From the NCBI GenBank assembly GCA_950295325.1, contig OX485807.1, positions 10,007,001 through 10,071,000 on the forward strand: a stretch of DNA of 64,000 nt, in the 5' to 3' direction. A model generated the notes under the pieces. That model was not told where the DNA came from and searched no databases. It worked only from the letters and a program-made list of their open reading frames with translations. This DNA comes from Polytrichum commune (taxonomy: Eukaryota; Streptophyta; Polytrichopsida; Polytrichales; Polytrichaceae). This document shows, piece by piece, positions 9,340 to 31,575 of this stretch (the first letter of the stretch is position 1; every line of letters begins with the position of its first letter). Both the position numbers and the translations under genes were made by a program.

Positions 9340-10520
9340 GATATCAAGAATTGGCATACCATGGATGCATTTGCAACAAAAAAGGATGGAGACTGTGTTC
9401 AGTGCTACCAGAAGCCAGGGTGATCACCCGCCAACGCTCAAGCCTGTTATCCCTCCACTATCCAAAGCGGGAGGTAGCGTTGCTCGGTTGCCCGCCTCAC
9501 GCGGTGCCCTCCTCTGCAATACCTTCTTTGCCTAGACTTGAGTTCAGACAACCAAGGTGACTTCAGATTTGGAGTGGGCAGACTATCTACGCGCAAGCAG
9601 ATGGCCTTGCTTAGATAAGGAATGTGCACAGTCTCCTGGCTCCCAGCCTGGGTCACAGGCGGCCGCTACACCACCCAGCTGACAGATGCCTCTCATTTCT
9701 GCTTCGTCTACTTTCTCATGGGGAATGCAGCAAGCCTTATGGGTTGGGGTGAACACGGGTAGAATTTTCTCTTGGCTTCTGTCTTTGAGCACCACCGTTG
9801 GTGACAGATTTGCTGCTGGGGCCTCAATGCTTCATGTGAACTCTTCTTAGTCTGAAGCTTTCATGGAGATGGGTTAAAGCATTCATGCGGATGGCTGTGT
9901 TGGAATATAGTTTCTTCATAACGGTTTGTGTCTGACATGGACAACATACGGACCCCGCCCATGTGCCGGCAGCGAATAGATTGTGATGTATGTAGGTTGG
10001 TAGAAAGACTGCAAAATTCTTCAAGAACTTTGAAACTGAGAAATGCTTAGAGTTGTAAAACCGTGTGAAGGATCTAAATTTCTTCACTTTTCTTACATAT
10101 TGTTTGGATGCATGGCATAAGTATTGAGATGGTGTTCAGTGGTACCATAAACTAGGTTGGTCAGACACTACTATTATTTGTGCGACTTGAGGTGGGAAGA
10201 TTAATTTAGCTTGGCTCCTGCACATAACACCAAGGGCTCACGGTGGGTACATGGTTGGGTGTGTAGATATGGGTACTAGGAAGCTGCAAAATACTTCAGA
10301 AAGTTTCGATTCAATAAATGTGTGAAGTTGTAAAACCGTGTGAGAAATTTGCGTTTCTTCATATTTCATACAGAGTATTTGGATGCAATCGCAACATATA
10401 AGGATGATGACTATGACCAGTGCTCCCAGAAGCCAAAATGATTCACTTGCCAACACTTAGGCATGTTCTCCCCCCACTACCCAAAGCAGGAGGTAAGATT
10501 GCTCAATTGCCTGCATCCAT
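9340..10520. repeat. Cluster of degenerate direct repeats
   Basis: The block at about 9385-9500 recurs at about 10405-10520; the shared text includes 'cagaagcca', 'gccaac' and 'ccactacccaaagc'-like segments. Another block at about 9985-10110 recurs at about 10265-10395, sharing a 'gttgtaaaaccgtgtga' core. The copies are diverged and carry no coding frame. They look like fragments of one repeat family inserted or duplicated several times downstream of the transporter gene. Confidence 0.6.
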
Positions 10521-11470: not shown

Positions 11471-11744
11471 ATAGTTTTGGAGTGTGGACGGTTGGTTAAA
11501 AACAAAATTCCTGAGCTACGGAAGTTACTTGGAAGGCTTGGCTATGTCCAGTCTCCAGTCCTCCCCCATCATTTGTTTTTAGCTGACGAGCTAAAAACAA
11601 TACACCCACCTACCCATAATGAATCCCTCTCACTTTTTCCCTTATTTAGGCTTCAAGAAATTGTTCGTGCAAAAAATAATAATATCATGTGAGCAAGCTG
11701 TGTCACTTCTTCCCTTGCATACAGTGTATACACCGGTGCCCGGG

Positions 11745-11753
11745 AAGGTTTTG
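11745..11753. repeat. Left target site duplication of the MULE
   Basis: The sequence is AAGGTTTTG. The right flank at 31567-31575 is AAGGATTTG, 8 of 9 identical. Mutator-superfamily insertions duplicate 8-11 bp, usually 9. Confidence 0.8.
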
Positions 11754-11838
11754 GGCGGACGTTAAAGTACCCCCTACGAACTTGTAGGGGGCATGTCAAA
11801 CCAAAAATCAGCCCTGCCCGCCCTTTGACGACGATGAC
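11754..11838 (+). repeat. Left terminal inverted repeat of the MULE
   Basis: It begins GGCGGACGTTAAAG and matches the reverse complement of the right end with three mismatches in 85 bp. It contains an internal hairpin, CCCCCTAC then GTAGGGGG around a 6-base loop, conserved in both ends. Confidence 0.88.
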
Positions 11839-11868
11839 GTCAGCAATAAAGTTTGTGATATTGTTTCG

Positions 11869-12144
11869 TCCACCATCCGTCCAATGAATGACGCAGGACG
11901 ACACCAAAAGCCCTGCACACGAAGCCCACGTCATTCACGATTAAGTCATTCAAGTCAATGTCCTTCCGCAAATATCGGATCTCAAATCTAAACTTTTAGG
12001 GTTTCATCCACCATCCGTCCAATGAATGACGCAGGACGACACCAAAAGCCCTGCACACGAAGCCCGCGTCATTCACGATTAAGTCATTCAAGTCAATGTC
12101 CTTCCACAAATATCGGATCTCAGATCTAAACTTTTAGGGTTTCA
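11869..12144. repeat. 138-bp tandem duplication next to the left TIR
   Basis: Two adjacent copies, 11869-12006 and 12007-12144, differ at only a few positions. Each contains 'gaatgac' and 'gtcattc' motifs that also recur in introns of the unknown gene and near the right end. Position and repetition are compatible with subterminal transposase-binding or promoter sequence, but that is inference. A TTTAGGG-type run follows at about 12343-12360. Confidence 0.8.
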
Positions 12145-12899
12145 GGGGGTAGCGAGTTTGTTTTTTGAATGTTGATTTCTGGTAGCTCCGAGATGTGTCT
12201 CTTCATGTCTATGCACACATTCTTGCAAAGCGAAGGACATCCTATTGAATGTTGCAGCATCTTCCCTCAGCTCCCACAATACACATAGCAACAATTCGTT
12301 TGAAGTAGCTTGGACATGTATGTTGCTGATGGGTTGATGGTTGTTTAGGGTTTAGGGTTTATATGATTATGCATTGTGAAGTACCCATGGTTTCAACAAG
12401 TCAAATTGTTTTGATTGAAGGATTGCCAATACCACAAGATGACTTTGAGAATACTAATCCGCCAACATTCCAAGCACATCAAGCTGATCTCATTATAGCC
12501 ATGCGAGACAAACTTCAGCTCCTCCTGCTGAGTTTAGGATGGAGGACTTAGTCTGGACAGATCATGTCACCAATGGGAAAGGTAGACACAAGGGCTCAAG
12601 ATTGGCTGTGATTCCATGACATAGGTTGCAGGATTTCATATCAGGAGAGCAACATCACCCTGATTACCCATGCAGATTCAATCTTGAGGTCATTAGGCGC
12701 AACTTGCCTAACTCATTGAAATCACCACGTGCACACTATCCGGCTCTTGTAGTAAGGTTTATTTTTCTCCTCTCTCCTCCACTGGCTGTCGTCCATGATA
12801 GCTATTTGCTATCCATGTAGTTCACATTGTTCTTCAAGAAGCTTCTTCTGTATTTTAAACCTCAATCTATGTCATTCTGTATCATTCAAAGTTTGTGCT

Positions 12900-15458
12900 T
12901 CACATTTCAATGTGGGATTGTGTGACTAGCGGATACCATTGCAATTTTGGGCCAGATGACAAGTCTGATGTTGTCCCAGAGGACATGCAAGCCCTTCTGA
13001 AATCCACCCAGAAACGAAGGATTAAAAAGAAACAAGCCAAACAGAAAAAGGGAAGAAGGTCATACTAGAGTATAACGCGTTCCCTCTAAACAAATCAATT
13101 GCTGCCAAGGTCAAGTGTGTGGGCAAAACAATTGGTGGTTTCTCCATTAAGAGGGGGTGCATGCGTTGTTTTGTTGCTAAACAACTATATCTGGATCCCA
13201 CTTTGTGCATGTTGGTTTATGAGAACACCATGCACCTCAACGCACGCGGTGAACATTGCCACGGATCAATGGTCAGTGGCTTATGGTATGCATTGGGTGT
13301 TGGTATCTTAGATGAGATGAAATACAAAATAGCTAAAATGCATGCTTTTGGGCTATCTCCGACACAAATTATGCAACAACACACCAAAGATGTCAGGAAA
13401 TTGGCTTTGGTTAATGGCACTGTCACTCGCGATACGTTTTTGTTGCCTACAGATGTAAAGAATATTTGTCGCAGGCGTGCGGAAGAACTCTGGATGAAAC
13501 ACCCTTCTGATCCAATAAGCGTTCGTATGTGGACGCTAGAAAATCCTGATAGTGTATTCTATTATCAGGAACATTCACTTATGGACCTGAATTCTTCTAC
13601 TCAGACTGATGCACCCTTCACCCTTGGAATCCAAACTGCATGGCAACTGGAAATGATGGGAAAATTTGGTCACAACAGTGCACTCTCAATTGACGCAACA
13701 TTTGGGACCACCCAAACACGGGTTATACACTTCCCTCTACGTCCTTCACCTTTTATGCATATCATTCATTGTTTGTGTGTCAGCACCTATGTCATGCACT
13801 GTCATTCCTATTCATAAGCTTTTATTAATGTCCTTGTTGGTTTAAGCTGGCAATTTACTTGTTTGTGACAATATCCACTATACACTGTTATGGTTTTTGA
13901 CGAATGGAGGAATGACATACCTGTGGCTTTCTTTGTTATCTCACGCACCCGCGAGCAGGACCTCATACATGTTCTTCAAGCCCTCCACAATAAAGTTACC
14001 GAGTACATGCCGAATTGGTGTCCTTCGTCCATCATTGTTGATAATGCCCAAGCTGAAATCAATACATTGAGGTATTGCCAAATTTCAACCAATTTTTTCT
14101 TGTTATTTTCTACGAGTTAGGGTTTAGGGATCCTTACAGTGTCATGCATGTGCAGGCTTGTATGGCCGGATGCAAAGATCCTCTTTTGCCTTTGGCATGT
14201 TCGGAAGGGCTGGGCAGAAAATGCCATTAAAAAAATTCCCACACATGCAGAACGTGCTGCGGTCCTCCATATGGTGGTTGATATTATGTATGGTAACGGA
14301 TGTGGTGTGGACGATGATCCAATCCATTGGGCTCTAGAACAACTCGACATTATAACCAACACTAGACCATGATCAGCCGCATTCATGAGGTACATGAATG
14401 ACAACTGGAGAACAAAGGTACCGATGTGATGTGTGGGTGCGAGAATGATACCTCATGCTGGCCAAAACACTAATGCTACCATTGAGTCGTACCACTCTAA
14501 CTTGAAAAGTATATTAACCTCTACAAAGGAGCGTTTCGTCGGGAGACGCATGGATTGGCTCATCTACCATCTCACCGGTGATGTGGTTACACATTATTGG
14601 TACGGAGTCCAATGCAAGGCATTTGGGTTTGTACGAAACAAACATCACGAAAGTATTGTATGTTCAGCCATCATTTACGCATTAAGAATACCTGATACTA
14701 ATGTATTGATATGTATGGAGGACACCATAACATATGTTGGATTTGTGAATAATAGGCCTAAAGTATGGACCATACATTCACATGATTCAGAATGGGCCCA
14801 GTGTGATTGTCCAATCGCACAGGAAGGTATGATATGCAAGCATACCATGAAGGTCTTCAAGATGCTCCACCCCGACATCCAAGATGGTGTCATTGTTAGG
14901 CAGGCATGTACTTTGCACGGGGTTGATCGTAGCACTCTAATGTCTCAGTGTTATTCAAAGGTCCCACCGGTTGTCATACGTGAAGAACACGCGCAACATG
15001 TTTCGGACACCTTCACAGACAATGTCACCAGTGACATCGTGGATCTCCACACTAAAACCATTGGGTACATTGGTGGTCCACAACATCCAATGCTCATGGA
15101 CGAAGAAGACACTCCGGAGATGTCATCTCATGTGTTGTTGGGCACTGTTTCAACCTGTAATGAACTTTTCCAATATGACATTGGAAGTAGCCAGGCTGCG
15201 GCGGAAGCAACAATTCATAATCTATACACGACATTGACGAAGAACGTCGATACTTACCCCGCTCTTTATACTCATTTGCTTGCGGACTTGAAACACATCC
15301 ATGGAAAGCAGACTGAGCTCATTGCTCGCGGTGACGCCATATTGCAGCTGACATCCACGCCCATGTCATTCCCTACACGAGATGGTGATAACTCCCTCAA
15401 GCGTCATCGGAGCTTTCTGGAAAACCTACCACCCAGAAAGAAAAAAATAAATCATTAA
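12900..15458 (+). pseudogene. MULE transposase (DDE + SWIM), interrupted
   Basis: The reading frame is recognisable from about 13060. An N-terminal basic block around 12910-13060 lies in another frame, so a frameshift or missed splice near 13050 is likely. The DDE core is visible: Asp in 'SIDATFGT' (codon 13692), Asp in 'IIVDNAQ' (codon 14040) and Glu in 'ATIESYHS' (codon 14484). A SWIM zinc finger follows, CDC at 14812-14820 then CKH at 14835-14843. An intron 14072-14155 closes in frame (GAG|GTATT..GCAG|GC). Another intron, somewhere between about 13720 and 13870, is needed, but its acceptor AG is missing. Two in-frame TGA stops sit at 14370-14372 and 14427-14429. The family role is cutting and joining element ends in the nucleus; this copy could not make a full protein. 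Confidence 0.85.
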
Positions 15459-16361
15459 ATTCACAGTTGTAGTACGTATTTATTGTGAATAACGTTGTTT
15501 ATGATTCATACATGTATAAGCTATTGGAGCACAATGTAGCTAAACATGTATATATGTTTTACGTATAAAATAATTGAGATAGTCAACTTACCAGTACATG
15601 TTTGATATCTTGGATATATTTATGACTTCAACTATTCGGAAATATTTGTGCAAGACTAGAATGACTGAAGTACATAGATTCAAATGAGTGCATTATTTAT
15701 GTAAACTGAAGGACTTCTTTTCAAAGTCCTTAGTTGAACGACTCGATTACTGATTGACTAGATGACTATGTCTTCCAACAAGGCTAAACATGCGATTTGT
15801 GACATGATACCGCTGCAAATGATTGAATGATTACATGACCACATCACAACATAATCTCACATCCTTCACACTAACTACACTTGTTCTATATAATCCAAAA
15901 CCATCATATGCAGGATATCTTGTAGAATACCACAATGAAAAAAACCCCGCTTTTTATTAAAAAAAAATGTACAATTTCCCAATCACTATACTATATTGAT
16001 CATGTGTTGGTAATATACATTTTGTATTGGGAGATGTATAATTATACAATACTAAAAATTGCCTTTCACAAAAATGCACCATCATCTTCCTCCGCGCTGG
16101 CTGGTTAGACGGCAACGTTTTCTGTTGTTGCTCCTTTGTGGCGTTCATTTCTTCGCAGTCACTTTCACAATCCATTCCGACCCCTCGTGCATCCCAGTTG
16201 TCAAAACATCAAACAAAACATCACTTATGATTTGACGTTGCTTTATCGCCTCATTCTTTTTATAATGAAATACACAGCCCTACACAATGAAGGACACATG
16301 ATACAGGTCAGCACATACATTATGTTGTATAACATACAAACAAATACAGTATTTTTATCAT
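15459..16361. other. Spacer between convergent MULE genes
   Basis: AT-rich and without coding signal. The transposase and protease genes end towards each other here, so both polyadenylation sites should lie in this stretch. Candidate A-rich motifs are present but none is decisive. Confidence 0.5.
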
Positions 16362-17719
16362 CTATATTAATTTGTACTGGATTATTCGATGCACGGAATC
16401 GTAACTGATATCACGCAGGGTTTGGGGATTATGTCTCAGGGCGTGAATATATTCCATTATGTTCTTCAAAACATAATATCCACATGCCCAACCTGAATTG
16501 TGTTGTGGAACAGTTGGCTGGATCCAAACAGTCGGTGATTGTACATTTTGCCACATGACAGATTGTTCAGCGTAGCCACCCCGCGTTGTTCACATCTTTG
16601 CTAACCGCTTGCGAATCTTTGAAACAAAATGTAGTCCAGCGTTGCTCATAAAATCAAAATGAACAAAACCTTGATTCCCTAGAACGTACATGGTCCAATG
16701 TTTCCCGCAAGTGTAGGGCACTAGAAGAGTTGTAATGTCCAACTCCGGAAAAGTTGGATACTTCTCATAGACGAACTTTATAAATATTTGTAAGCTCTCG
16801 GTCGGATGCAGACGAAGAAAATCCATTAAAATTGGAATGAGATATGGACTACAGACATGACACTTAACATCTTCAAGTTGTGGATTCAACCACGTTCTTA
16901 TCCATTCCATCAAGTGGTTGGACACCTCACCGTATCTAACAGTTAATGGTTTTATATCATACGTCCAGTCTAATGTACAAAATTTACCCTTGAACGTAAA
17001 TTCAAACGAAGGACTTACTGCCCCACTTGCATCGGCCACAATTGTGTTGACTAGTTCTTCTAACTTGTACACCACAAATGCATATCCATTAGAGAACAAT
17101 AAGACCCTGTACTATAAGAGCAATTGTATTTATCCACGAACAACATTAAACATAACAACATTTAATTCTTACCGTCCATCGGACTTCTGATATGTCTTGG
17201 AGATGACATCGTCAATTGTGTTATCCACAGGTTTTTTGCGATGTCCTTCAACTACTTTTGACATGATTGACGTACTCAGTGTTTTTGACACTTGACCTCC
17301 GCGTGTGCTATTGATGCAGAGTTGTCTTTGACACATGTAATGTCCTTCGCATTTCGTCGCTCGGTACAAGCTAACGAGTTGTCAAGGCCATTAGTAAGAG
17401 TTGGTGGTGATCCTAATCGACACGTGACTGAAACCGACGGAGGCACTTTAATGATAGTCAACGCAGGAGTTCTTCAGAACCATGGTCCTTCACGCTTTCC
17501 TTTATGCAACTCTATTGCTGTACATGGCGATTTTGAATGCATCGTGCAAAGCAAACCGTCGGGGGAAAGAGGCGCCGGGGAAGTAACCGTCTTCATAGGC
17601 GTGCCTTGAATGTCCTTTAGGGTTTGCGTAAGGTCTTGGGTATCACTGCTCTCTAAATCATTTACTTGCATTTTTAAAGGGAGTGGAACACTTATGTGAG
17701 CCCAAAACGGTGCCCACAT
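16362..17719 (-). pseudogene. Ulp1/C48-type SUMO-protease-like gene of the MULE, disabled
   Basis: The C-terminal half shows the cysteine-protease triad in order: His in 'GKHWTMYVL', Asp in 'HFDFM', then the Gln-to-Cys segment 'TVPQHNSGWACGYYVL'. This is the layout of Ulp1 (C48) peptidases, which process SUMO or related proteins. A 66-bp intron at 17107-17172 closes in frame (CG|GTAAGA..TACAG|G). Upstream coding runs to about 17719. Defects are an in-frame TGA at 16590-16592 just before the catalytic Cys segment, another TGA near 17474-17476, and a frame change around 17287 in an A-run. Ulp1-like genes captured or carried by MULEs are known in plants; their role in transposition is unproven. 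The exact 5' end is not certain. Confidence 0.8.
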
Positions 17720-18892
17720 GTGTTTTTAACCCTTAGGAATTTATTAGGATTTGATTTTGATTTGATTTTATCTATTCAAAATATAAAAGAGTGAGGTGTG
17801 GAGTGGGATTGGATTTTAAGCCGTACGTTGGGTATGTGCACTCAATGTTATGAAATTGCTAGAGTTGAGAAGGGGGTGATTAAATTAAGAATAAGCGGTG
17901 TTTAGAGCAAGGGAAGAAGACACATGGTTTAACGTTTGAATTAGAACCCCCTTGTGTCGGTTTAAGGGGTCGGGGTTTAGTGGATAGGCTTGGGAAGTCA
18001 CATTTTGAACCGGCAGAGAACGACCACAAGGAGGGGTCTTTCAGCAGGAGAGGGTTGTTCCTCCAAGGCGATCTCAGAGGTTCGGAAGAATGTGAAGGCT
18101 GCTGACCAAGGCCAAGGCGATCTCAGAGGTTTCGGAATAATGTGAAGGATGTTGGCCGAAGCCGAGCAGATTCAGAGGTTTCGGAAGAATGTGAAGGTTG
18201 CTGGCCGAAACCAAGCAGATTCAAAGGTTTCGGAAGAATGTGAAGGCTGCTGGCCAAGGCCAAGGCGACCTCAAAGGTTTCAGAAGAATGTGAAGGCTGC
18301 TGGCCGAAGCCGAGCAGATTCAGAGGTTTCGGAAAAATGTGAAGGCTGCTGGCCAAGGCGATTTAGAAGTTCTGGGAAGGAAGTGGCATGGACTGTTGGC
18401 GGCCAAAGGAATTTATCGTGTAGACCAGTTGCTGGTTTAGTAAGTAATTAGTCCTAGAATTAGGCTTGGGGTTTAGAGAATGTGGAACTAATTAGGATCC
18501 TACTTAATGTAGGTTGTGGCACAAGTATTTATGAATACTTTGGCATATAAGAGTTTAATAAAAAGATAGGGTTGTGCCCTCATTGTCTCATTCACGGAGG
18601 GTTGATACATTTTCACAATGCGGGAGAGGAGTGTGACAGAGGATCCCTCGCCTGGATTCAGACGTAGTTAAGGGCGGGGGTGATTCTGGGCTCACAACCC
18701 TCAAGGCCTTCCAACCTTAGTGCATCGATCCTGGACTTCAGCTACAAACCCTTTTGGAGTGTGCATCCCATCCTGCTGGGTTGGTTGTGTAAACTCACCT
18801 AATAATGTATGTGTAGCTACCACATCCTCTGCAATGTCGTCGTTGGCCTCCTCCAACCCTAAACCTATGTAAAGTAGATGTAGTTGCGTGCG
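17720..18892. other. Insert-like stretch with minisatellite and LTR-like promoter features
   Basis: No gene. It separates the protease gene from the unknown gene. It carries the 49-50-bp minisatellite at about 18068-18362, then a TATA-like 'catataag' near 18544, an AATAAA near 18555 and a GC-richer tail. That order resembles an LTR, and a 5-bp 'ccaca' occurs at both 17714-17718 and 18820-18824. However, the right end would be TA rather than CA, so the boundaries are not established. Confidence 0.35.
18068..18362. repeat. Six-copy minisatellite, 49-50 bp unit
   Basis: The anchor 'tgtgaagg' recurs at 18091, 18141, 18190, 18239, 18289 and 18338. Each unit has 'cagaggtttcggaagaa' before the anchor and 'ctggccgaagccgag' or a 'ccaaggccaagg' variant after it. 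The units are contiguous, with no unique spacers, so this is not a CRISPR-like array. Confidence 0.85.
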
Positions 18893-19045
18893 TCAAAACG
18901 CCACCAGAACTTCAATCGCCTCGGCAAGCCGCAGTTGAGCACAAATGTTTTTCTTGTGGATGTCGCCAACTACCACTGAACCTATGTCGGCGTCTTCGCG
19001 AATGACCATTGCAGAACATAATACATGTATGTCATTAACTAAAAA

Positions 19046-19195
19046 AACGTAAGTCACTATATGACAACATGAATGACGTAAGCCACTAAATGACAATATG
19101 AATGACGTAAGTCACTGAATGATGTATATGAATGATGTAAGTCACTGAATGACGTAAAACACCTAATGACGAGTATGAATGACGTATATGAATGA
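19046..19195. repeat. Short tandem repeats in the last intron of the unknown gene
   Basis: About five units of 30-38 bp built on 'gaatgacgtaagtcact'. They fall between the exons ending at 19234 and starting at 19038. The same 'gaatgac' heptamer occurs elsewhere in the MULE. Confidence 0.7.
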
Positions 19196-20084
19196 ACATT
19201 GACATATACAATAAATGACACACAACAAATTACGTATCTGTTCACACTTGGCCCTCCGTTGTTCAGGGACATCGACGGCATACCACATGTCCTCGAGCTC
19301 TGAGCAGCATTGCATTCTGATCATATCATAGACAACCCTATGTGCAATTCTCCCAATGAAGGCGTTGATCCTTTCTACAACTCCAACTTGCTTTTCTGGA
19401 TCATAACCAAGCAATGCAACGGTGCCCGAATGGAGATTGCTAAAGGTATCGGTCACTTCTTGAATACCTGGAAACAAAGCCCACCCCGTCGTAGCCAAAC
19501 TATACACAATATTCGTCAATGCAACTGATTTATCCTTGTCTTTTGCAAAGTCCAGAATGTACTGCTCCGTGAGACCTACATATGGATGAGGAAGAGGACG
19601 TGTGTTACCATGTAATGTCCTGACTAAGACCAAAAACTCTCTAACAATATGAGGACACTCAAGCTCAAGAGAAAGAGGCTCCGTACTGACATTCTCTAAC
19701 AATATTTTCTGTAATTCTTCCCCTTCATCGCGCGTGTGCGCCCAAGGTGAGTTTCGGAAATTGGGCAGAGGCCATTTCTTGAAAATACTGTACAGTGGGG
19801 ACCATCCCCACTTCTTTTGTTCGGCACGACTCTTCTCTGCATTATTAAACTTCTCCAACTTCTCCTTCACATATTGACTGTGTAATTCGGCGATATTCCC
19901 ATGGGCATCAACAACTTTGGCCTCGTACTCTCTGGTTTGAATTCTGAAGTTGAGGTACTCCTTTAAATGCATGAGCTCTTCATACCTTTGCACGTCTGAA
20001 GGGCTATTGAAACATCTAATTTGCGACGTTATCTTGGTGAGAAGAGCTACGTGATCTTTTGGGTCTCGATTGTTTTGAAATAAA

Positions 20085-20290
20085 TGAAACGTGTATGTCA
20101 TTCACTGTTACACTCATGAATGACATAATATACAACTGGTGACATATACGATATCTGTAAAGTTCGATGAAGGACAAATAATTAATAAATTAAACGTGTA
20201 TGTCATTCAATGTTTCAGTCATGAATGACATAGTATACAACTGGTGACATATACCATATATATAAAGTTCTATGAAGGACAAATACTTAA
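20085..20290. repeat. 105-bp tandem duplication in an intron of the unknown gene
   Basis: Two diverged copies share 'aaacgtgtatgtcatt' and 'atacaactggtgacatata' cores offset by 105 bp (20115 against 20220). The duplication reaches the exon edge near 20100, which makes the splice acceptor hard to place. Confidence 0.75.
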
Positions 20291-20718
20291 CATACATAGA
20301 CATCACATACTGAATTTCCGTAAAGGTACCAGGTGCCAAATGCGCTGCCAAGTTTAACACCAAGGGTCCCCTCCTCCACCATCCTATGGAGGAATTGAAT
20401 GCAAGCTTGAGGATCTTCAATGAGGTCTTTGGGCATCCAATCATTATCCACCTCGGTGATCAAGATGTATAATCCACTTATATCAACAGTTGTAGGCGGA
20501 GGAGGAATGCATACAGGGTTTCCATCAGGGAACTTCAACTTGGCTTTAAGCCACGCACACTCTTCAATTTTATCCCGAGTGAGAATGCGACCAGAATGAC
20601 GGTTGTTGAAGTCACGTCCTTCAGATGTGGTTTCGCGCGAAGTGGAGCGGATGTCGGAAGAGGTTGGCGCTGCAACCGGTGGTGTATCATCATCATTGTC
20701 TTCTTTGGTTGATGTCGT

Positions 20719-21654
20719 TGTCGCAACCCTTGCTAGTTTTCCTTCACTTAGCTTGACCGCCTTTCCAACCTAGCAAGTGCCACGAGCGCTAACCTGCACA
20801 TCCCACGCACATGCATGGTTAGCTCCCAAAACCGCGGACTCAAGCTCATGGCTAGGTCACCAAACCCTCCTACACATGCATTCGGGACTCTCCCTTTAGT
20901 AGGTAGCCAATGGCTAAGGTGGACTTCCATCCATGGAAGTCCACTCTTGAGTTGATCATCGTGTTGCCAAAACAACACTACAACTACCCGGAGCACATTG
21001 CCAAGTATGCTCCGGGGGGGTTGGTCAGCTAAGCCGCCTCACCCATATAAGCCTCTAGGACTTTGGGCGGGGCCCCTACCCCACCATCAAGTATCCTTTT
21101 GTCTCTCTACAAGGGTTGGGGCCAGGTGGACATTTTCCCTTAGCCGCTGGGGCTAGAACCCCCCCAGCAGCTTCAGACCACCATAACTTCTACATATGAT
21201 GTCGGATGCTATTAAGCAACCACTCTATCGTCACCTACTCTTTGCGTAGATGCCGATGGACCCCTCACTTGACCCATTCGGACAAGTATTGAGGAAGTTA
21301 TAGCTCTTCAAACCTTGGCAGTCCCGGGCACCACTCCCAGGTCACTGCTGTCCCAGGGTGCTGTCCCGGGACAGTGCCCCACTCAAATTGCCATATCTCC
21401 TAGCTAGCACCTCCGATTGAGGTGTTCCTTAGCATTCTAGAATTCCACCGCCATAAGCTACTCATAACTTATGGCCTTACCCTCATGACTCTTAGTCTCT
21501 GTGGGTGAGAGGCGTTCTCAACGCCCGGGGCCCTCACCCACACTAAGAGTACTTGGGCCCTCTCACCAATGGCCCCACAAGTCCCGGGTGTCACTCCGGG
21601 GTCCCCCTTGTGCCCATGGTGTTGCGGGCACTCCTCATGGAGAGGTGCGCGACA
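20719..21654. mobile_element. Solo LTR, 936 bp, inside the unknown gene
   Basis: The ends are perfect short inverted repeats, TGTCGC at 20719 and GCGACA ending at 21654. They are flanked by GTCGT (20714-20718) and GTCGC (21655-21659), a 5-bp duplication with one mismatch. The GC content is higher than the surroundings. On the plus strand a 'catataag' TATA-like box occurs near 21044, suggesting plus orientation. A 24-bp hairpin (TGGACTTCCAT, CC, ATGGAAGTCCA) sits at 20920-20943. Removing the LTR plus one duplication keeps the minus-strand gene in frame across the junction. No internal retrotransposon region is present. Confidence 0.8.
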
Positions 21655-22867
21655 GTCGCGGATGATTGTTCTTCAGAACAATCAACCATTTGGTCGTCGC
21701 TATCATGTGACACCTCCTTCTCCTCACTGTGATGAGTGGCCTGAAATGAGACATGCAATGCCAAAGGCTTCACCGCAGACCGTGATATCTTGCACGGAGG
21801 AACAACATGCGGGTTGGGGGCAGAAATTGCGGGGATCTTGCGGTGTTTTGCACTGGGTTGTGGAAGGACATCCTCCGCCTTCCTTGTCCTGCCTGTAGAA
21901 GACTTAGGAGCGGCGTGTTGCTGGAAAACTCTTCCGTACTTTTTGGCAATCCGGTTCAGCTCGCCGTGATCACTCTTCTCCCAAGTTGGGTACATCTTAA
22001 GAGCATGCGAATCCTTGTACACCTTACATAGATTAAACTTCCTATGGTAAGATGTCATGTTTTTATCTTTATGTATTTCTTTACAAAAAATACACAAAAA
22101 AGGAAACCTGCCATTTTTTAACCTTTCGGTAGTGACTCTGGCCTTCAAATAACATTCAAGGGTCAGACGATCATAATCCTCTTCTAAGAACAGAGCCGCA
22201 CATGGCTTCCTATTGTGTGTCATGGTGCTCTTATACATCCTCTGCCCACCATACACCTGCAAGTATAACAAAAAACGAAGTGTTAAGGGAGAAGTCACTG
22301 AATGACTGAATGACAACTACCCTATAATAATTGTCGCAAATGAACACATATCAATGCATGACATATATGAGTGAACTACATGAAAGACTGCAGAACACAT
22401 AATATCTAGACCACGACAAGTGATTGTGAGCAATATTGGACCGAAAATCAACCCACCAAATCAACATAAGTTCAAATGCAAAAAAATTGAGCAAAATGTG
22501 GCCAGTGTGCAAAAAATATTCGACATACGAAACAAAATTGAACAGCCGGAAACACTGAATTGCGAGTCGGAGCAAGAAAGCAATGAAATAGAAGATTGTG
22601 GGCAATCAATAATCACAAAGATGACTCACCCTTTGTTGCCAACCCACCAGACCGAAGACCACCATGTCCACAAATTTTGCTCGCCCAAGGATCTGGATCA
22701 ATGGCGGATCCTCCAACACGTGTAGTCGATGCTGCAAAGCTTCTGGAACCAGCTTTGCAGTTGTCTATGCCACCTGTTGTTGAAAGGAAGGGTCGCCATA
22801 GATCCTGAAGGACGCAATGAGGTTAGGATCGGCACTCCTTGGGTAAGACTTTTGTGAAGAATGAACC

Positions 22868-23009
22868 CTGCTCAATAATTAAGGATTCACTTTCTTTGAT
22901 GGTTAGAGAACATGAGAATGGCCTAATACTATCAGTAGCTTTCATCTGTACACATCAGTAGACATCAAATGTGCAACATGAGTTTGAATTACCTAGTTAG
23001 GAAAGACCA
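22868..23009. other. Short non-coding stretch of the MULE
   Basis: No coding signal. It lies between the first visible exon of the unknown minus-strand gene and the dispersed repeat. Confidence 0.5.
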
Positions 23010-23471
23010 ATGTAACAGGCAAAAAAATATTGACCATGCATCCCTTACCAAAATGTCCCTCTGAAGATATCAACATGTAACTGGTTGGACTTGGAAACAC
23101 TTGAATGTTGACCGATTTTTCTCAAAATTTTCTGAGACACTACATCCAGTGCTAAGTATTCTGTCATACTTCTGACATCCACGCCAGCAAAATACCAGCC
23201 AACTAAACATATTGACTGAAGGCCCCCTTTCCACTAGAGCTCGAGTTGCTTGCAAATTTGCAGGAGTTTGATTCAACAAGCGATCATCCAAAGCTCAAAA
23301 TTTTACGAGCTTGACCAATCATTAAAATCTCAACAGTTTGAGCAAGTCGTGTAAGTTGACCCTGCTCAAAGTGAGATACTAAGGAGGGGGAGAATGGGCA
23401 TTAAACAAAGGGAGTCCACCACCAACCCAAAAATGCTTTGTAACGCATTGGCGGCTGGGGGCCTACAAAAC

Positions 23472-23940
23472 TGTTGTAGAAATTAGTTTAGAACTAATTA
23501 GAAAACAATCTGATGTATCAGCAGATGAAACCATTTGAGGCTAAGGGTCTGAGCCATTTGAGGCTTAGGGTTAATACCCTTTTTAGTCCAGGGTATCAAG
23601 TGATTAATTAGAACCTGGACACCTAGCAGGTTACTTAGACTGTAACAAAGTTTAACTAAGGGACCTAGCCGGGTATCCCGAGGGTATCTGACCCCTTTAC
23701 ATAGTGTAGATAGTATTACACCCCGGATATCCCGAGGGTATCGGCCTAGGTATCAACCAGGTTGGTATGGCCAGACACTAAGGTGCTACCAGATGGTGAC
23801 AAGTGGCATACATTATTATTTTATTATTTTTATACAATATACATACCCTCGTCTACCATACACAGGTAGTTCTGAGTATTCGCACCTACATACTGTCCAA
23901 AATACACTCTGTGTACACCATCTATATCTCAGTTCTAACA
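23472..23940 (+). repeat. Left LTR of the Copia element
   Basis: Starts TGTTGTAGAA and ends TTCTAACA. It contains the duplicated 'tatcccgagggtatc' segment. It is directly followed by the primer-binding site. Confidence 0.95.
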
Positions 23941-23953
23941 CGTTATCAGCACT
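23941..23953 (+). promoter_or_regulatory. Primer-binding site of the Copia element
   Basis: CGTTATCAGCACT starts immediately after the left LTR. From memory, similar 'gttatcagcac' sequences occupy this place in other plant Copia elements. The matching tRNA was not determined. Confidence 0.6.
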
Positions 23954-24565
23954 CGCTCTTGGCCTACATCTACTTCTACACTACTTTCTTTCTGCCTATA
24001 CGTATATACACACACTGATAGATAGTATTGTGAGGACCCGAGTGAACACATGAGGGAGTATTTTAGTTTTCTACATGTAAAACCTATCTATGCACAAGTT
24101 TCTGATCACACATAGACACAATAGGATGCTCTATCAGTAACCACTCCACATTCTGATATTACTACTCCTAGATCAGCAACTTTTTCTTTACCCTTAGTTT
24201 ACATTCTTCACAATCTGAATTGTTATGCTGCCGGAATCTAGGATCATATTTTCATCTTTTTACCTATAGGAAGGTTATGCTGCCAAATTTTTTTTTAGGG
24301 ACCTGACTTACCTCTTCCATAGGACTGTTATGCTGCCCAAATCTCCCCAGCACTTTTGAAGCTCTAACACCCGGGTTCTATCCTCCCTTCTTACATTTTC
24401 TGTCCATATATATATATATATACATATATATTTTTCTGTTTATATCCTGTCAATATTATTAACCACTGTCTGTTTGATGCCTTCTGATTTGGTATATAAT
24501 ACCAAATTGCTGTCAAAATTTTGTTTGCACCCACTAACTTGATTATCATATATATATATCTTTTT

Positions 24566-24601
<36 letters not shown>

Positions 24602-25064
24602 TGATTACTAACTATATATATATATATATATATATTGTTTTTCCATATCCTGAAATAATCCTGTTTTATTTCAGAACTAACACTTTCATTTTTTCCTTTC
24701 TGTTTTTTTTTAAATTCCCAATTACATATGACCTGTCTATACTAACCTGATTCGGATACTTATATCGTACCGAAACTCTGCCAAAATTCTATAAGAATTT
24801 TCTACCCCCCCCCCCCCAATTTTTTTTTTTCTGAATATACTGATTGTATATTTATACCCTGTTTTCATATATATATATACATTATCTATAAATATCATGT
24901 CTGTATATATATATTTTGTCTATCCCTTTAAGCTAAATCCTCCCTATAGACACCCCATTTTCTGTCTGAATTCTACCCACCTGTTTATCTAATAGATATC
25001 CTGCCTTATACCTTTAACTGTAAAATTAGTATCCAACTACTGTCCAACCCATATACATTCTGAT
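23954..25064. other. Copia 5' leader with AT microsatellites
   Basis: Untranslated leader before gag. It has long (TA)n runs (about 24410-24430, 24567-24600 and 24615-24636) and a C-run near 24806-24818. No coding frame. Confidence 0.7.
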
Positions 25065-28000
25065 ATGAATAAAACCAACAGAAACATGGTAGAATCTAGA
25101 CTACAGAACCTTTTATTCTCACCTCTCCAAGCAGATGGGTCCAATTTTCTGGAATGGATAAATGATGCTAGAACAATACTATGTGCAGAAGACTTAGCTA
25201 AAACCCTCACACCAGAGTCCTTACCTTCCACTCCAGTTGATGATACTAATGAAGATCCTCCTGTTCATCCTGAGGTACCCACGGTATCTAAATGGCAAGC
25301 ACTTGCGCTACTCCGACGGCACATGGACCAGTCTCTTCGATTGCAGTACCTGGAGGTTGATGATCCAGCGGACCTGTGGACCAAGTTACAAGCTCGATTC
25401 GACCATCAACAAACCCTGTATCTTCCACAAACTCGCACAGATTGGGCGAATCTACGTGTGTTGGACTTCCCCGATTTTGTTACCTACGACTCCAAGCTCC
25501 ATCGCATCGTGGCACAACTCCGATTATGCGGCCAACGTGTCACCGAAGCTGAGATGGTGGAGAAGACGCTGTCGACATTCCCACCAGCCACTACGATCCT
25601 GTCCCAGCAGTATCGAAACATGAAGTTCAAGAAGCATGCCAATCTCATGGCACACTTGTTATTGGCGGAGAAGCACCAGCAGCTGCTCCTACGGAATGTT
25701 GAATCCCGACCCGCACGCGAAGTACATACAACAACTGCTGTACCTACTCAACCTACTGCCATGGTGGAGGCACATGCCGCTGAAGCTTCTAGAAGGCCGC
25801 CTAAAGGTTCTTATCGGAAATCCTATCCCTCTCACCCTGCAAGAGAGACGCGAGCCTATGGCAAGAGCGATGCGCATAAGGGTTATAACAAGAGAGATGA
25901 ATACACAAGGAGAGAACCCCCTAGGCCCCGATCCAACCAGTTCAAACCTAGGAACTTTCCACCGAGACAATTTCAGGGTAATTGTCATAAATGCGGGCGT
26001 AAGGGTCATTTCGCTAAAGATTGTAGAGCCCCGTCCTATATTACCAGCATGTATAAAGAACTTCAGCAACTCCGGAACCAAAATAGGCAGGCCTACAACT
26101 TCGAAAACCCCAACCCGAATCCATCCTCACACACTGAAAACCTTGAAAATTACATGACTATCTACGAGAAGTGCTCATCAAAACCAAATGAGGCTCTCCT
26201 AGATAGTGCATCAACCCATACCATCCTTACAAACCCAAAATTTTTCCATTTCAGAGGAAATGATGAACCCTGGCAGCATTGTACAATTATTACAATGGCC
26301 GGAAGCCAAAATATAAGATTTCGGGAGGGCCGGGCAACGGTGATATTGCCCGGGGGATTCCCCCTCAATTGCGCAAGAGCAATGTATGCCCCAGACACCC
26401 CGAGGAGCCTGATCAGCTATCGGGATCTGAGGGCGAGGAATATCCACGTTTCTACTGCGGTAAAAAATGATGAAGAGGTTCTGGAGCTCAGGCAAGGGCT
26501 GATGATCCTTGCCACCGCGAAAGCAGGAGATGACGGCCTATACAAGATTGTCATAAATCCCCTTGACAATGAGAGCCCCATCTCACTGATAGATGAGGAA
26601 GAGGTGTGCATGGCTGCTTGGGCTGGAGACCCTGAAGCATTACGCCGCAACCTAGCGGAGGGAGTGTCTGTAGACACTAAAGCCAAGCCTGATTTATGGC
26701 ATGAGAGATTAGGACATCCGGGCACAACAATTTTTCGCCGGATGATTCTTTTGCTGACAGGTCATAACCTAGTTACAGCGGATTCAGGGAAAACACATGA
26801 ATGTGTAGCATGTATAAAGGGAAAATACATTAAAAAGCCTTCGAAATGGAAACTACCAACTGAGCTACCTCCCCCGCTCTACAGACTCCATGGGGATATA
26901 TGCGGCCCGATTAATCCACCATCAGGAACCTTCCGATATTACCTAGTCTTAGTGGACGCATCAGGTAGCCATTTCGAAGTTGCATTACTCCCCACCAGAA
27001 ACATGGCTTTCCCAAGGTTATTAGCGATAATCCTCCGCTACAAAAACCATTTCCCTGAATATCCAATTAAATATCTTCGCATGGATAATGCCCAAGAATT
27101 TAAATCCCATGCTTTTGAGGATTATTGTACAGCTATAGGAATAGCACTAACCTATTAAGTACCCTATGAGCATGAACAAAATGGGTTAGCTGAGGCATTT
27201 GTGAAGAAGATTCAACTCATTGCTAGGCCTCTGCTGTTATATGCTAAGCTACCATCTAACATGTGGGGTCATGCAGTATTACATGCAGCATCCTTGTTAA
27301 AATTACGACCTACCTTACTAAATACCCATACCCCGCAGGAGCTTTTATCCGGGAAACCACCTGATATCTCTCATATCCGAGTATTCGGCTTCCAAGTCTG
27401 GATACCAATGCCAGAACCACATAGGCACACCATTGGCGCACACCGCCAAGAGGGTGTTTATGTCGGATTTGATTCTCCTTCCATCATCCGTTACCTAGAT
27501 CCTTTAACCACTAACCTTTACAAGGCCAGATTCGCAAACTGCCACTTTATTGAAACCCACTTTCCAACCTTACCCTCATCCTCTACCCAAAACAACCTGA
27601 ACTTTGGTGCACCAGAGTCCTTAACCATGAACCCTGATCCCCCAACCTCCTTAGCCAACAAAGAAATTACTAAACTTCTACATCTGAAAAACCTGGCCGA
27701 ATCTACCCCAGATGGTTTCTCCACTCAGCCTAGGATAATTCGTCACCCTATACCCGGGACAGGCCAAATTTTACCTAGAAAAAAACCTGAACCTACTACA
27801 CCCATAATCCAGCCCTCTAAATATCCAAAAATCCACTACACAACCGAGTCTGTAGACTCGATTCCCGAGTTTGATCCCACAACATTAGACCAGACTATGA
27901 CTAGATCATATTGGCCTCATTGGAAAACCGCAATTGAAACAAAATATGCATCCTTGAGAAAACATGGTGTCTTTGCTGAACTAACCACAAACTTAGACAC

Positions 28001-29489
28001 CCAGCCCATAGGCCACAAACTAATATTCACTAGGAAACTTGATTCTCAGGGCAGAACACTTAGATACAAAGTTAGATTAGTGGCCCAGGGATTTACACAA
28101 GGACCAGGAATAGATTATGAAGAAACTTATTCCCCTGTAATGGACACAGTTTCTTTCCGATATCTTTTAGCACTTTCTGTCCAGCTATCCCTCAAAATGT
28201 ACTTGCTGGATGTAGTAACAACCTATCTACATGGAAATCTTGAAACAAAACTGTATTTAAAACCTCCCCCTGGATTTCTGAAATCTACCCCCCAACCCAA
28301 ACCTGGAAAATTTTCTGGACTTAGAATCTGCAAGGCTTTGTATGGTCTAAAACAGTCTGGGAGGGCCTGGTATCATCATTTGTGTCATTTTCTGATCTCC
28401 CAAGGCTTTGTTCACAATAATAACATACCTTGTATATTTACTTACACTACAAATGTTGGCTTTGTAATCCTAGCAGTCTATGTTGATGACCTGAACATAT
28501 TAGGCACACCAAAATTATGTGAATTTGCTCAAAATATCTTAACCAAGAATTTTGACATGAAATACTTAGGCCAAACATCTTATTGCCTAGGATTACAAGT
28601 GCATTATGTACCTAATGCTGGAATCTTATTGCACCAGCAAGCCTATGTTCAGAAGATTCTCAAACAGTTCAAAATGGATCAAGCTAATCCTTTAGCTGCC
28701 CCTATAATAGGCCCCAGCAAAACTAAAGATGATCCTTACCAACCTCGTGAGGAGGAGGAGGAGGTAATTGATAAACCTAGATACCTCACAGCGGTTGGAG
28801 CATTAACCTATCTTACAACTCATACTAGACCTGATATCGCATTTGCGACTAGTATTTTAGCAAGACATAGTCAAAACCCAACCTTGAGACACTGGAATGG
28901 AATTAAACACCTGTTAAGATACCTGTGAGGGACATCTGACCTTGGCATGTACTATCACAAGACTGACCAACATGAAATCCAAGGTTTTGCAGATTCCGGG
29001 TTTAGAACTGATATGAATGCAGGTAAATCACAAACTGGTTATATTTTTCTAAAGTGTGGAGCCCCTATCTCATGGAAGTCCACGAAGCAGACTGTAACAA
29101 CTACTTCAACGAACCACGCTGAACTACTTGCATTTCACGAGGCTGCTCGTGAAACCGTGTGGCTGAGGACAATGGAGAGAATTCTGGACCAGCAGTGTCG
29201 ACTCCGATTCCCGAACTAGCCAACTATAGTCTATGAAGACAACTCGGCGTGCGTGAGACAGATGGCCACTGGTTTCATCAAAGCAGATAGAATAAAACAT
29301 GTTAGCCCACACATTTTTGGTTTTTCTCAAGATCTGATAGAACAAAAACAGTTGAGAATTGTAAAGATAGAGTCTGAGAACAATATTGCTGACATGTTGA
29401 CTAAAGCTTTACTAGCTTATAAGCATAGAAAATTAGTACATGCAGCTGGACTTAGAACACTCCAAGAATTAACCACATCTGGTAATTAG
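25065..29489 (+). pseudogene. Copia gag-pol polyprotein with three in-frame stops
   Basis: One frame spans 1475 codons including the final stop. Residues 1 to about 300 are gag. A CCHC knuckle (CHKCGRKGHFAKDC) starts at residue 307. The protease motif DSAS is at residue 380. The integrase has its zinc-binding region, then catalytic Asp codons at 26895 and 27084 and Glu at 27168. Reverse transcriptase shows 'LVAQGFTQ' and 'YVDD' (28479-28490). RNase H motifs 'FADSGF' and 'HAELLAF' follow. In-frame stops are TAA 27156-27158 (inside the integrase, before the catalytic Glu), TGA 28926-28928 and TAG 29217-29219. Without them the protein would have normal Copia length, so only point nonsense changes disable it. 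Confidence 0.93.
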
Positions 29490-29580
29490 TGCTCTTTTCT
29501 CTAGTTAAGGTTTTTTCCCAAAATTTGGGTTTTACTTAACAGAGTTTTTAATGAGGTTAATTCATCAGCTTGAGGAGGAG

Positions 29581-30048
29581 TGTTGTAGAAATTAGTTTAG
29601 AACTAATTAGAAAACAATATGATGTATCAGTAGATGAAACCATTTGAGGCTAAGGGTCTGAGCCATTTGAGGCTTAGGGTTAATACCCTTTTTAGTCCAG
29701 GGTATCAAGTGATTAATTAGAACCTGGACACCTAGCAGGTTACTTAGACTGTAACAGAGTTTAACTAAGGGACCCAGCCGGGTATCCCGAGGGTATCTGA
29801 CCCCTTTACTTAGTGTAGATAGTATTACACCCCGGATATCCCGAGGGTATCGGCCTAGGTATCAACCAGGTCAGATGGCCAGACACTAAGGTGCTACCAG
29901 ATGGTGACAAGTGGCATACATTATTATTTTATTATTTTTATACAATATACATACCCTCATCTACCGTACACAGGTAGTTCTGAGTATTCGCACCTACATA
30001 CTGTCCAAAATACACTCTGTGTACACCATCTATATCTCAGTTCTAACA
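29581..30048 (+). repeat. Right LTR of the Copia element
   Basis: Same termini as the left LTR, preceded by the purine-rich tract at about 29572-29580. One base shorter than the left copy. Confidence 0.95.
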
Positions 30049-30200
30049 AAAACGACAGTGCAAACTCTTGACAATGTTCCTCCTAAGCAACCACTTGTGA
30101 CCATGGAGGCCGCTTAAGATTTTGACCAGGACCTTGTCATCAGACAGTTCTGCATGGAATTCGTCATCAATGTCCAATCGCGCACGTCGAAAGCTTGAAG

Positions 30201-31481
30201 TGTAAAGTGAAGTTGAGTCACCAAACTTAAACGTGGAGAATTAGGCACCTTTCTCCGAGCTCCGAGCTACTCTCCACCTCTCTCTAGTGTGAAAGATGGC
30301 CTAACTTGAATCACAATAGCAGTTTTAGCACATCGATAATCCTTTGCTAACCACGACAACCAACCAATTCACAAACAATCAATGACTACTGCAAGCATTT
30401 CCATTCACAAGTGATCGGATTTCTTCGTAGAGTCCACATGCCTCTTAATCCGTCCTCCTGTTCGCGAAGTAGTTGAACTATCAACTATGGAATTCCTGTA
30501 CACACGCTCCGCCTCCCTCACATTTACAAATCGATGAAATTCCTTCGGCTCTTCTAAGAAATGTATCCCCCGCCGAACCTAAACTATACCCTAACCAACC
30601 GACAAAAAACCCTCACAGATGGAGGACTCCCACTCCCACCGAATCCCTGCGAACCCAATAAGTCTAATTAGGCAGTCCTACATGATCGCCTGAAACCCAT
30701 GAGCATCTTAACAAGGAATGTAGACCGCTGGGATAGTTCATACCTTGGGATCGCAAGTTGTTGATCGCAAGTTCTAGATCTGGGTGTGTCGCACCTGGTC
30801 GCGAAAGCTCGCGCGCGCGCCTGATTGGCAAAGATACGCTCTTTGAATGCTCCTTGAATGCCAAAGAGATGCCTTAGTCCTCAACCGAAACCCTGCCTCA
30901 GATGCCTCGGTCCTCAACGAAAGAGATGCCTCAGTCCTCAACCGAAACCCTGCCTCAGATGACTCGGTCCTCAACGAAAGAGATGCCTCAGATGCCTCAG
31001 TCCTCAACCAAAACCCTAGATGGCGATGGCGATGGCGAAGAGACGTGTTACAGTGGATGATCCAATCAACTAGAGGATCAAATCTGTACTCGTTGTATGC
31101 CCAGATCTATTTAATCAAGATGGCCACAATTGAAGCACGACAGATGTAACACCTAACCACTCAAAGTGCTCAGTAACGTCCTGCACTCATTACTCGCTAA
31201 ACAGTGAAAAGACAGCAACACACACTCCCAAAGAAGTCTAAGTTTTCACAATCATGATCAATTAACAATCACAATCATGAGAAAGATTTGCCATTGAGAG
31301 AGGCAAACTCCAATGAATGACATGACCGAAGGACAACACTAAACCCTAAACAGCTAACCTTGAAGGACGAAATCTTCTCCCTAGCGCGTCCCTGCATACA
31401 ACCTCGGCAGTTACTCTGTCATTCTGTCATGCCGCCCTTCCGTCCTTCCGTTAATCCGTCCATTGGTGACCGGTTGTGCCG
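30201..31481. other. Non-coding right arm of the MULE
   Basis: No gene recognised. It contains the 57-bp tandem repeat at 30866-31012, a short (GC)n near 30811-30820 and scattered 'aaccctaa' telobox-like motifs. It ends at the right TIR. Confidence 0.5.
30866..31012. repeat. 57-bp tandem repeat, two and a half copies
   Basis: Units start at 30866, 30923 and 30980. Each unit is two related halves built on 'cctcagatgcctcggtcc' and 'gagatgcctcagtcc'. All copies are in frame with each other (57 = 3 x 19), which produces open but meaningless frames on both strands. Confidence 0.85.
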
Positions 31482-31566
31482 GTCATCGTCGTCGACGGGC
31501 GGGCAGGGCTGATTTTTGGTCTGACATGCCCCCTACAAGTTCGTAGGGGGTACTTTAACGTCCGCC
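31482..31566 (-). repeat. Right terminal inverted repeat of the MULE
   Basis: Reverse complement of the left TIR, followed directly by the 9-bp duplication at 31567-31575. It has the same internal hairpin. Confidence 0.88.
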
Positions 31567-31575
31567 AAGGATTTG

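Follow-up and report, generated by a model that had tools for sequence, protein, structure and literature searches.

A 64,000-nucleotide stretch of the moss Polytrichum commune (assembly GCA_950295325.1, contig OX485807.1, positions 10,007,001 to 10,071,000 of the forward strand; hereafter the window) carries at positions 11754-31566 a decayed copy from an old lineage of Mutator-like elements (MULEs) that was still active in recent times and has three genes of its own. These genes, which encode a transposase, a Ulp1-type SUMO protease and a probable zinc-finger protein (the third gene), are inherited together in a fixed order, and the non-coding DNA of the elements is enriched in an 8-bp motif, TG[AC]ANNAC, whose variable letters follow the lineage. 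In our view the chances are about even that the family practises motif-guided anti-silencing, in which the zinc-finger protein would most likely be the reader of the motif and the SUMO protease the effector.

A genome search with the 85-bp terminal inverted repeat (TIR) of the window copy gave at least 40 scored places (95 candidates), many of them in facing pairs 1.6-24 kb apart. Protein probes matched 118 times for the transposase, 134 times for Ulp1 and 136 and 121 times for the two parts of the third gene, and these matches merged to 115, 120, 119 (C-terminal part) and 116 (N-terminal part) places, respectively. All three other probes lay within 15 kb at 60 transposase places, while a chance neighbour at this distance is expected in less than 1% of cases per probe. 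With the nearest matches taken, the order was the same at all 60 four-probe loci, i.e., transposase on the plus strand followed by Ulp1, the C-terminal and the N-terminal part of the third gene on the minus strand. The C-terminal part of the third gene was nearby at 69 of the 115 transposase places and not at the other 46; conversely, 90 of its 119 places had a transposase or Ulp1 match nearby and 29 had none.

Besides the window copy, 16 further elements and two short TIR-bounded copies (m1 and m2) were examined, and later six stretches (R, S, T, V, X and Y) for divergent lineages, of which S turned out to be the third gene alone and not an element. A script found TIR pairs of 38-86 nt in 11 of the 17 elements, the window copy included, and no pair in K, L, M, O, P and Q within the stretches examined. 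The target site duplications, all read by eye, matched at 9/9 positions in C, C2, D, H and I and at 8/9 in A, B, E and N; J is ambiguous and the stretch of F ends short. An earlier reading of the window, made from its letters without database searches (the sequence-only reading), had suggested a distinct three-gene MULE lineage, which is supported by the order at the 60 loci and by the nine elements that combine TIRs with an 8/9 or 9/9 duplication; the genome search that it proposed with the TIR and the proteins did return full-length three-gene copies with 9-bp duplications. It had also envisaged that copies with the same TIR could lack the third gene and the protease, or that the third gene could be single-copy outside transposons. 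Neither held: m1 and m2, which have none of the family genes, appear to have arisen by deletion, and the third gene occurs in many copies within elements, with one relative outside at C2:66469038-66471107. A literature search, which reached few subscription journals, turned up no other three-gene MULE with TIRs that combines a Ulp1 and a zinc-finger gene.

Elements H and I (on contigs C1 and C6) are 99.4-99.6% identical over 12 kb, and the main blocks of elements C (on contig C6) and C2 (on contig C2) agree at 98.9-99.6%, both pairs at different sites and with perfect 9-bp duplications. As near-identical elements thus each occupy their own site on different chromosomes, transposition is recent. 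Diverged copies are under purifying selection: the ratio of nonsynonymous to synonymous substitution rates (dN/dS) was 0.04-0.28 in every part for the computable pairs with dS above 0.4, two saturated pairs of the zinc-finger domain not being computable, and 0.21-0.78 for the closest, partly decayed pairs. Trees of the transposase, Ulp1 and both domains of the third protein have most of their well-supported groups in common, for example A-F in three of four trees, H, I, J, X and Y likewise in three, and the pairs M/N, Q/V and O/P in every tree. On the branching order of the deeper groups and the position of T the trees disagree or lack resolution; R, S and T stand on long branches.

The window copy has the following borders, genes and inserts:

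11745..11753, plus strand: target site duplication, left copy (aaggttttg)
11754..11838, plus strand: left TIR, 85 nt, from repeat comparison and also from genome copies
12886..13725, plus strand: transposase exon 1 with the first catalytic Asp in SIDATFG, end approximate
13872..14072, plus strand: transposase exon 2 with the second catalytic Asp in IIVDNAQAE
14157..15455, plus strand: transposase exon 3 with CLWHV, the catalytic Glu in NATIESYH and the SWIM motif CDCPIAQEGMICKH, interrupted by stops, start approximate
16377..17273, minus strand: Ulp1-type (C48) protease domain with an in-frame stop and a Gln-to-His change
17324..17691, minus strand: N-terminal part of the Ulp1 gene, first piece
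17692..18693, plus strand: insertion of about 1.0 kb with a 5-bp overlap at the site and 49-bp tandem repeats inside, absent from the closest relative
18728..19033, minus strand: N-terminal part of the Ulp1 gene, second piece
19190..20197, minus strand: third gene, conserved C-terminal domain of about 280 aa
20218..20718, minus strand: third gene, middle part, broken by the adjoining insertion
20719..21654, plus strand: insertion of about 0.94 kb within the third gene that the closest relative lacks, with a 5-bp overlap at the site
21655..22307, minus strand: third gene, N-terminal part with a conserved domain
22026..22094, minus strand: probable C2HC zinc finger CIFCKEIHKDKNMTSYHRKFNLC of the third protein
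23472..30048, plus strand: nested copia long terminal repeat (LTR) retrotransposon, foreign to the MULE
31482..31566, minus strand: right TIR, 85 nt, 96% complementary to the left
31567..31575, plus strand: target site duplication, right copy (aaggatttg), 8/9 identical

The borders read from the sequence, 85-bp TIRs at about 96% and a 9-bp duplication matching at 8/9, are hereby confirmed, while the size of 19.8 kb is not intrinsic to the MULE, being inflated by the copia element and the two inserts of about 1 kb nested inside. The copia insert has LTR pieces 98-99% alike and gag, integrase and RVT_2 matches in Pfam; the two smaller inserts were recognised against the closest relative of the window copy (C5:20932835-20946134). 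Once all three are subtracted, about 11.3 kb remain for the element proper; from TIR end to TIR end, C, C2, D, E, H, I, J and N span 10.7-12.2 kb, and B, which has acquired a separate insert, spans 13.3 kb. In the window copy, which is decayed, all three genes are broken: there are stops in the transposase and Ulp1 frames, the catalytic Gln of Ulp1 is changed to His and the third gene is interrupted by an insert.

Relatives of the window copy allowed the proteins to be assigned. The spliced transposases of C, J and K, the three submitted, match the MULE domain PF10551 (E-values 2.1e-16, 1.6e-17 and 6.2e-14), which settles the plus-strand gene as a MULE transposase; two transposase exons of the window, submitted singly, had no Pfam match above the cut-off because introns split the domain. 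A text search found SIDATFG or SLDATFG, the VDNAQA motif, the Glu motif and a SWIM-type CxCx9CKH in most copies. For the protease on the minus strand, likewise read correctly from the sequence, PF02902 is matched in the relatives J (3.4e-6) and C2 (8.1e-5), while the window piece alone gave no Pfam match above the cut-off; the domain also matches a solved Ulp1-like SUMO protease in the PDB (0.0029). In an alignment of 22 sequences the catalytic His and Asp are present in all, Gln in 21 and Cys in 20, and the complete His-Asp-Gln-Cys set in 19. The Ulp1 gene has a long additional N-terminal part, for which the sequences submitted to Pfam gave no match, DUF1985 included. NCBIfam gave no match above its cut-off for the proteins of four relatives.

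The third gene on the minus strand, with the Cys/His cluster that the sequence-only reading had pointed out, is present and conserved, and several copies read as one uninterrupted frame of 656-784 aa that seems to run through an in-frame intron. The N-terminal domain of the third protein probably holds a C2HC zinc finger: in 17 aligned rows the second Cys, the His and four neighbours are invariant and the other two Cys occur in at least 90%. A profile of this domain matches C2H2 fingers in the PDB, e.g., of ZNF473 (0.0068) and PRDM9 (4.2e-4, a sum over several fingers, none significant alone), and the 47 chains listed up to an E-value of 10 are mostly zinc-finger proteins, with reverse gyrase among them. 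One relative, O, gave a sub-threshold C2H2 match in Pfam (0.041). Over its roughly 280 aa the C-terminal domain shows W, WSP, CP, R and G residues that do not vary, and searches of Pfam and the PDB gave no convincing relative for it. The relative outside the elements at C2:66469038-66471107 is an open, single-copy frame of 690 aa with at most 36% identity to the other matches; the surrounding 10 kb hold no transposase or Ulp1 match and no motif, and it is either a host donor or a domesticated copy.

Apart from the genes, the elements are tied together by the 8-bp motif. Non-coding DNA, taken as what remains after masking stretches similar to the family proteins, is enriched in TG[AC]ANNAC, in the versions TGAATGAC/TGAAGGAC, TGAAGAAC, TGCAGAAC, TGCACTAC and TGCAAGAC depending on the lineage. 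When only sites in distinct contexts were counted, a member ranked seventh or higher by over-representation among the 8-mers in 22 of the 25 sequences; none was among the top ten of the window outside the element, and none among the top over-represented 8-mers of S. As the pattern was first derived from A-Q, these are not an independent test; among the three-gene elements added after the pattern had been defined (R, T, V, X and Y), four of five showed it. TGAATGAC occurs at 91 non-coding sites in twelve elements (A-F, C2, H, I, J, X and Y) and at one in the ten elements K-R, T and V. Of TGCAGAAC, 53 sites lie in K, L, M, N, Q, T and V, 12 in the former twelve elements and seven in O, P and R, while TGCACTAC has 14 sites in O and P and one elsewhere (J). 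The words TGAATGAC, TGAAGGAC, TGAAGAAC and TGCAGAAC form a series of one-letter steps.

Mapped onto the trees, the motif classes need eight changes for the transposase, Ulp1 and the zinc-finger domain and nine for the C-terminal domain, compared with a mean of 13.1-14.1 after shuffling, which gave as few as observed in 0 of 200 trials per tree, although near-copies in the set favour a low count. In element H all 15 sites are in distinct contexts and none lies in DNA alignable to six other elements; outside alignable DNA are also 11 of 17 sites in A (against five elements, its close relative B excluded), 12 of 17 in C, and, against four elements each, 18 of 19 in N and four of five in K, as well as all eight in P (against three). 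In none of the 12 elements checked do the TIRs contain the motif, which spreads over the gap between transposase and Ulp1, introns, 3' parts and also subterminal DNA. Two short derivatives of 1.6 and 1.8 kb keep the TIR and have 11 and 10 TGAATGAC sites. The window copy contains the following groups:

11885..12090, no strand assigned: six TGAATGAC sites in two 138-bp repeats adjoining the left TIR
19070..19183, plus strand: four TGAATGAC sites between the Ulp1 and third genes
20097..20280, no strand assigned: six TGAATGAC/TGAAGGAC sites in two 105-bp repeats between the conserved parts of the third gene
31314..31368, plus strand: two motif sites near the right TIR

Arrays of 31 bp (TGAATGACAACGTAGGACGACG...) at C1:7184204, C1:38261132, C3:38394165 and C4:52074276 are similar to the window copy's 138-bp subterminal repeat (AATGAATGACGCAGGACGACACC), from which they may derive. 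K and L (L021 and L023) have non-coding tandem arrays of GTGGAACATG-like units, the extent of which differs between the copies.

Elsewhere in the window, a plant signal recognition particle RNA gene lies at 9388-9679 (Rfam RF01855, 145 bits), and a host gene at 55163-58504 has a 1113-aa open frame containing long tandem peptide repeats, in frame, of the ESPDTSRKESDSSVEVVHESPAQVEDQ type. The best 5.8S match of the assembly is on contig C22 (about 11690-11843), whose ribosomal DNA we take, by its signatures, to be animal-like and possibly a contaminant of the plant sample. Contig C5 carries a degenerate 5.8S, the form of which is that of plants other than seed plants.

Several known MULE systems share parts of this organization and are compared here on the accessible parts of the sources cited. 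MuDR of maize has TIRs and 9-bp target site duplications and is not known to carry a Ulp1 gene. With mudrA and mudrB it resembles the P. commune family in joining a MULE transposase with an accessory gene, mudrB encoding a protein of unknown function (PMC6446971). CUMULE-type MULEs of melon, rice and grapevine are similar in having Ulp1 downstream of the transposase and 9-nt target site duplications, with Ulp1 in either orientation and TIRs present or not; the grapevine ULP families are, however, not one clade, and the accessible text mentions neither a third conserved gene nor a lineage motif for them (PMC2528002). VANDAL elements of Arabidopsis (e.g., VANDAL21/Hiun and VANDAL6, with VANA, VANB and VANC) likewise combine a MULE transposase with two further genes and a lineage-specific short non-coding motif, and the motif of VANC is short, often in tandem repeats of non-coding DNA, and changes between related elements (PMC5735166). 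VANDALs are described as non-TIR MULEs (PMC6446971; PMC13317346), whereas the P. commune family has TIRs of the lengths given above; the absence of TIRs is not uniform for VANDALs, because TIRs of VANDAL21 are mentioned in a methods section (PMC10398659). The motifs also differ, with TG[AC]ANNAC in P. commune and YAGTATTAY or AGTTGTCC/AGTTGTAC in VANDALs, and the third protein of the P. commune family has a probable C2HC finger.

KIU proteins carry a Ulp1 domain fused to a VANC-type protein with DUF1985. The P. commune proteins submitted had no DUF1985 match, and a search of the genome for DUF1985 was likewise empty, but its positive control gave no match either. The Kaonashi elements or KI-MULEs of Arabidopsis, to which KIU belongs, resemble the P. 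commune family in having three genes, one with a Ulp1 domain; there, however, this domain is part of the VANC gene in non-TIR MULEs, while in P. commune the Ulp1 and zinc-finger genes are separate and TIRs are present (PMC13317346). Some VANC genes carry the Ulp1 domain, the role of which in those elements is unknown (PMC13317346).

We propose motif-guided anti-silencing because the family has the same ingredients as the VANC/KIU elements, here as two separate genes and with TIRs. An element protein, most likely the zinc-finger third protein, would bind TG[AC]ANNAC sites along the element, as VANC does in VANDALs, and the motif-bound reader would recruit or work beside the SUMO protease. The protease could then strip SUMO-dependent silencing from the family's own copies as well as from motif-bearing short derivatives, whereupon the transposase would move the unsilenced copies via their TIRs. 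If the variable letters drift together with the reader, the effect of each sub-lineage would be confined to its own copies. Motif binding, de-SUMOylation, anti-silencing and the identity of the reader are what we infer here from the gene content and the motif. That such a system arose independently of Arabidopsis VANC or as a deep relative of it, with reader (the C2HC protein) and effector (Ulp1) as separate co-evolving genes and an 8-bp TG[AC]ANNAC code that changed one letter at a time from sub-lineage to sub-lineage within a single genome, we consider plausible at somewhat less than even chances.

Several observations weigh against this proposal. The third protein has no match above the Pfam cut-off, and the gene trees show no conflict in their well-supported groups, so that co-inheritance cannot tell which protein reads the motif. 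J and X have overlapping, partial or mixed motif forms only, R, with its version TGCAAGAC, has only four sites, and in element E all but one of the 23 sites fall in DNA that aligns with relatives. The motif occurs also inside the homology-masked coding parts, where short introns under the mask could perhaps account for some of it. Arrays of TGAATGAC are not exclusive to the family, either: three close TGAATGAC sites occur at 125 genomic places (84+41) versus 26 (9+17) for the reversed control, and among the 100 of these 125 places listed, 15 were assigned by eye to three-gene loci or TIR derivatives, which rules out for TGAATGAC the exclusiveness that had been expected. Many of the remaining places are 11-bp arrays of another repeat, of which one copy was examined. 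TGCAGAAC arrays were found at 17 places, 11 of them in family loci by eye, and at none for the control. In addition, many elements (e.g., L003, L007 and L042) show an equally strong enrichment of a telomere-like box, AAACCCTA, in distinct contexts and irrespective of lineage; host factors may therefore have sites in the elements too.

The other repeat is represented by L043 (G000:C2:45217300-45227200), with similar places on C1-C5. It is long and contains 11-bp arrays of TGAATGACTAG-like units with the clade-1 word, its matches to family proteins are no better than an E-value of 0.046, and it has a single open reading frame of at least 130 aa (144 aa). Perhaps it is a hitch-hiker on the same reader, or else a coincidence. 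A comparable case is AT9TSD1, an unrelated element bearing the VANC6 motif, which is also affected (PMC5735166).

These observations leave room for other explanations of the motif. It could be a binding site at which the transposase assembles the transposition complex, like the subterminal repeats of other plant transposons, with the third protein as a mudrB-like accessory. The motifs in subterminal DNA would fit, as would the two gene-less short derivatives that retain both motif and TIR, and the motif classes are matched by the transposase tree no less well than by the others. We nevertheless regard this as unlikely, given that the motif is missing from the TIRs in all 12 elements checked, that sites also occupy the transposase-Ulp1 gap, the introns and the 3' parts and are not confined to the ends, and that the transposase exon has shorter branches between the main groups than Ulp1 and the C-terminal domain of the third protein, yet the motif changes. 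The reader could also be the N-terminal part of Ulp1, making the Ulp1 gene the counterpart of VANC/KIU and the third gene that of VANB. In Arabidopsis, some VANC genes with a Ulp1 domain (KIU) act on KIU elements through motifs (PMC13317346), and the Ulp1 gene of the P. commune family has its long N-terminal extension. The recognisable DNA-binding motif, i.e., the finger, is however in the third protein only, and the N-terminal parts submitted had no Pfam match, the search for DUF1985 being empty with a silent control as noted; we therefore deem a Ulp1 reader rather unlikely.

Telomere-like boxes are plant promoter motifs. Their enrichment in most of the same elements would agree with the 8-mer being the site of a host transcription factor that drives element expression, the lineage-wise change then reflecting a switch between host factors. 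This seems improbable to us, as TG, A and AC stay fixed across what is a single family of variants while the other letters change by lineage, which is more like one evolving reader than several host factors, and as the sites extend over the whole element. Neutral growth of tandem repeats could likewise create motif arrays; part of the sites do lie in tandem repeats, and an unrelated 11-bp genomic repeat contains TGAATGAC. Such an origin is decidedly improbable, however, because the enrichment survives the collapse of similar contexts and the motif is common to elements with largely unalignable non-coding DNA, such as H and N. As to the third gene, the single-copy relative outside the elements would suit a functionless passenger captured from the host, a view we disfavour as very improbable in light of its company with the other two genes at 60 loci, the purifying selection acting on it and main groups that agree between the trees across deep branches.

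To our knowledge, sequence-specific anti-silencing by a transposon is known solely from VANDAL-type elements of flowering plants. If motif-guided anti-silencing by the P. commune family is true, it would be a second case, in a moss and with reader and SUMO protease as separate genes, meaning that the strategy recurs, and it would suggest why MULEs repeatedly carry Ulp1. The at least five versions of the word in one genome would then constitute a natural series of reader-motif pairs in which the joint change of a protein and its DNA word could be followed.

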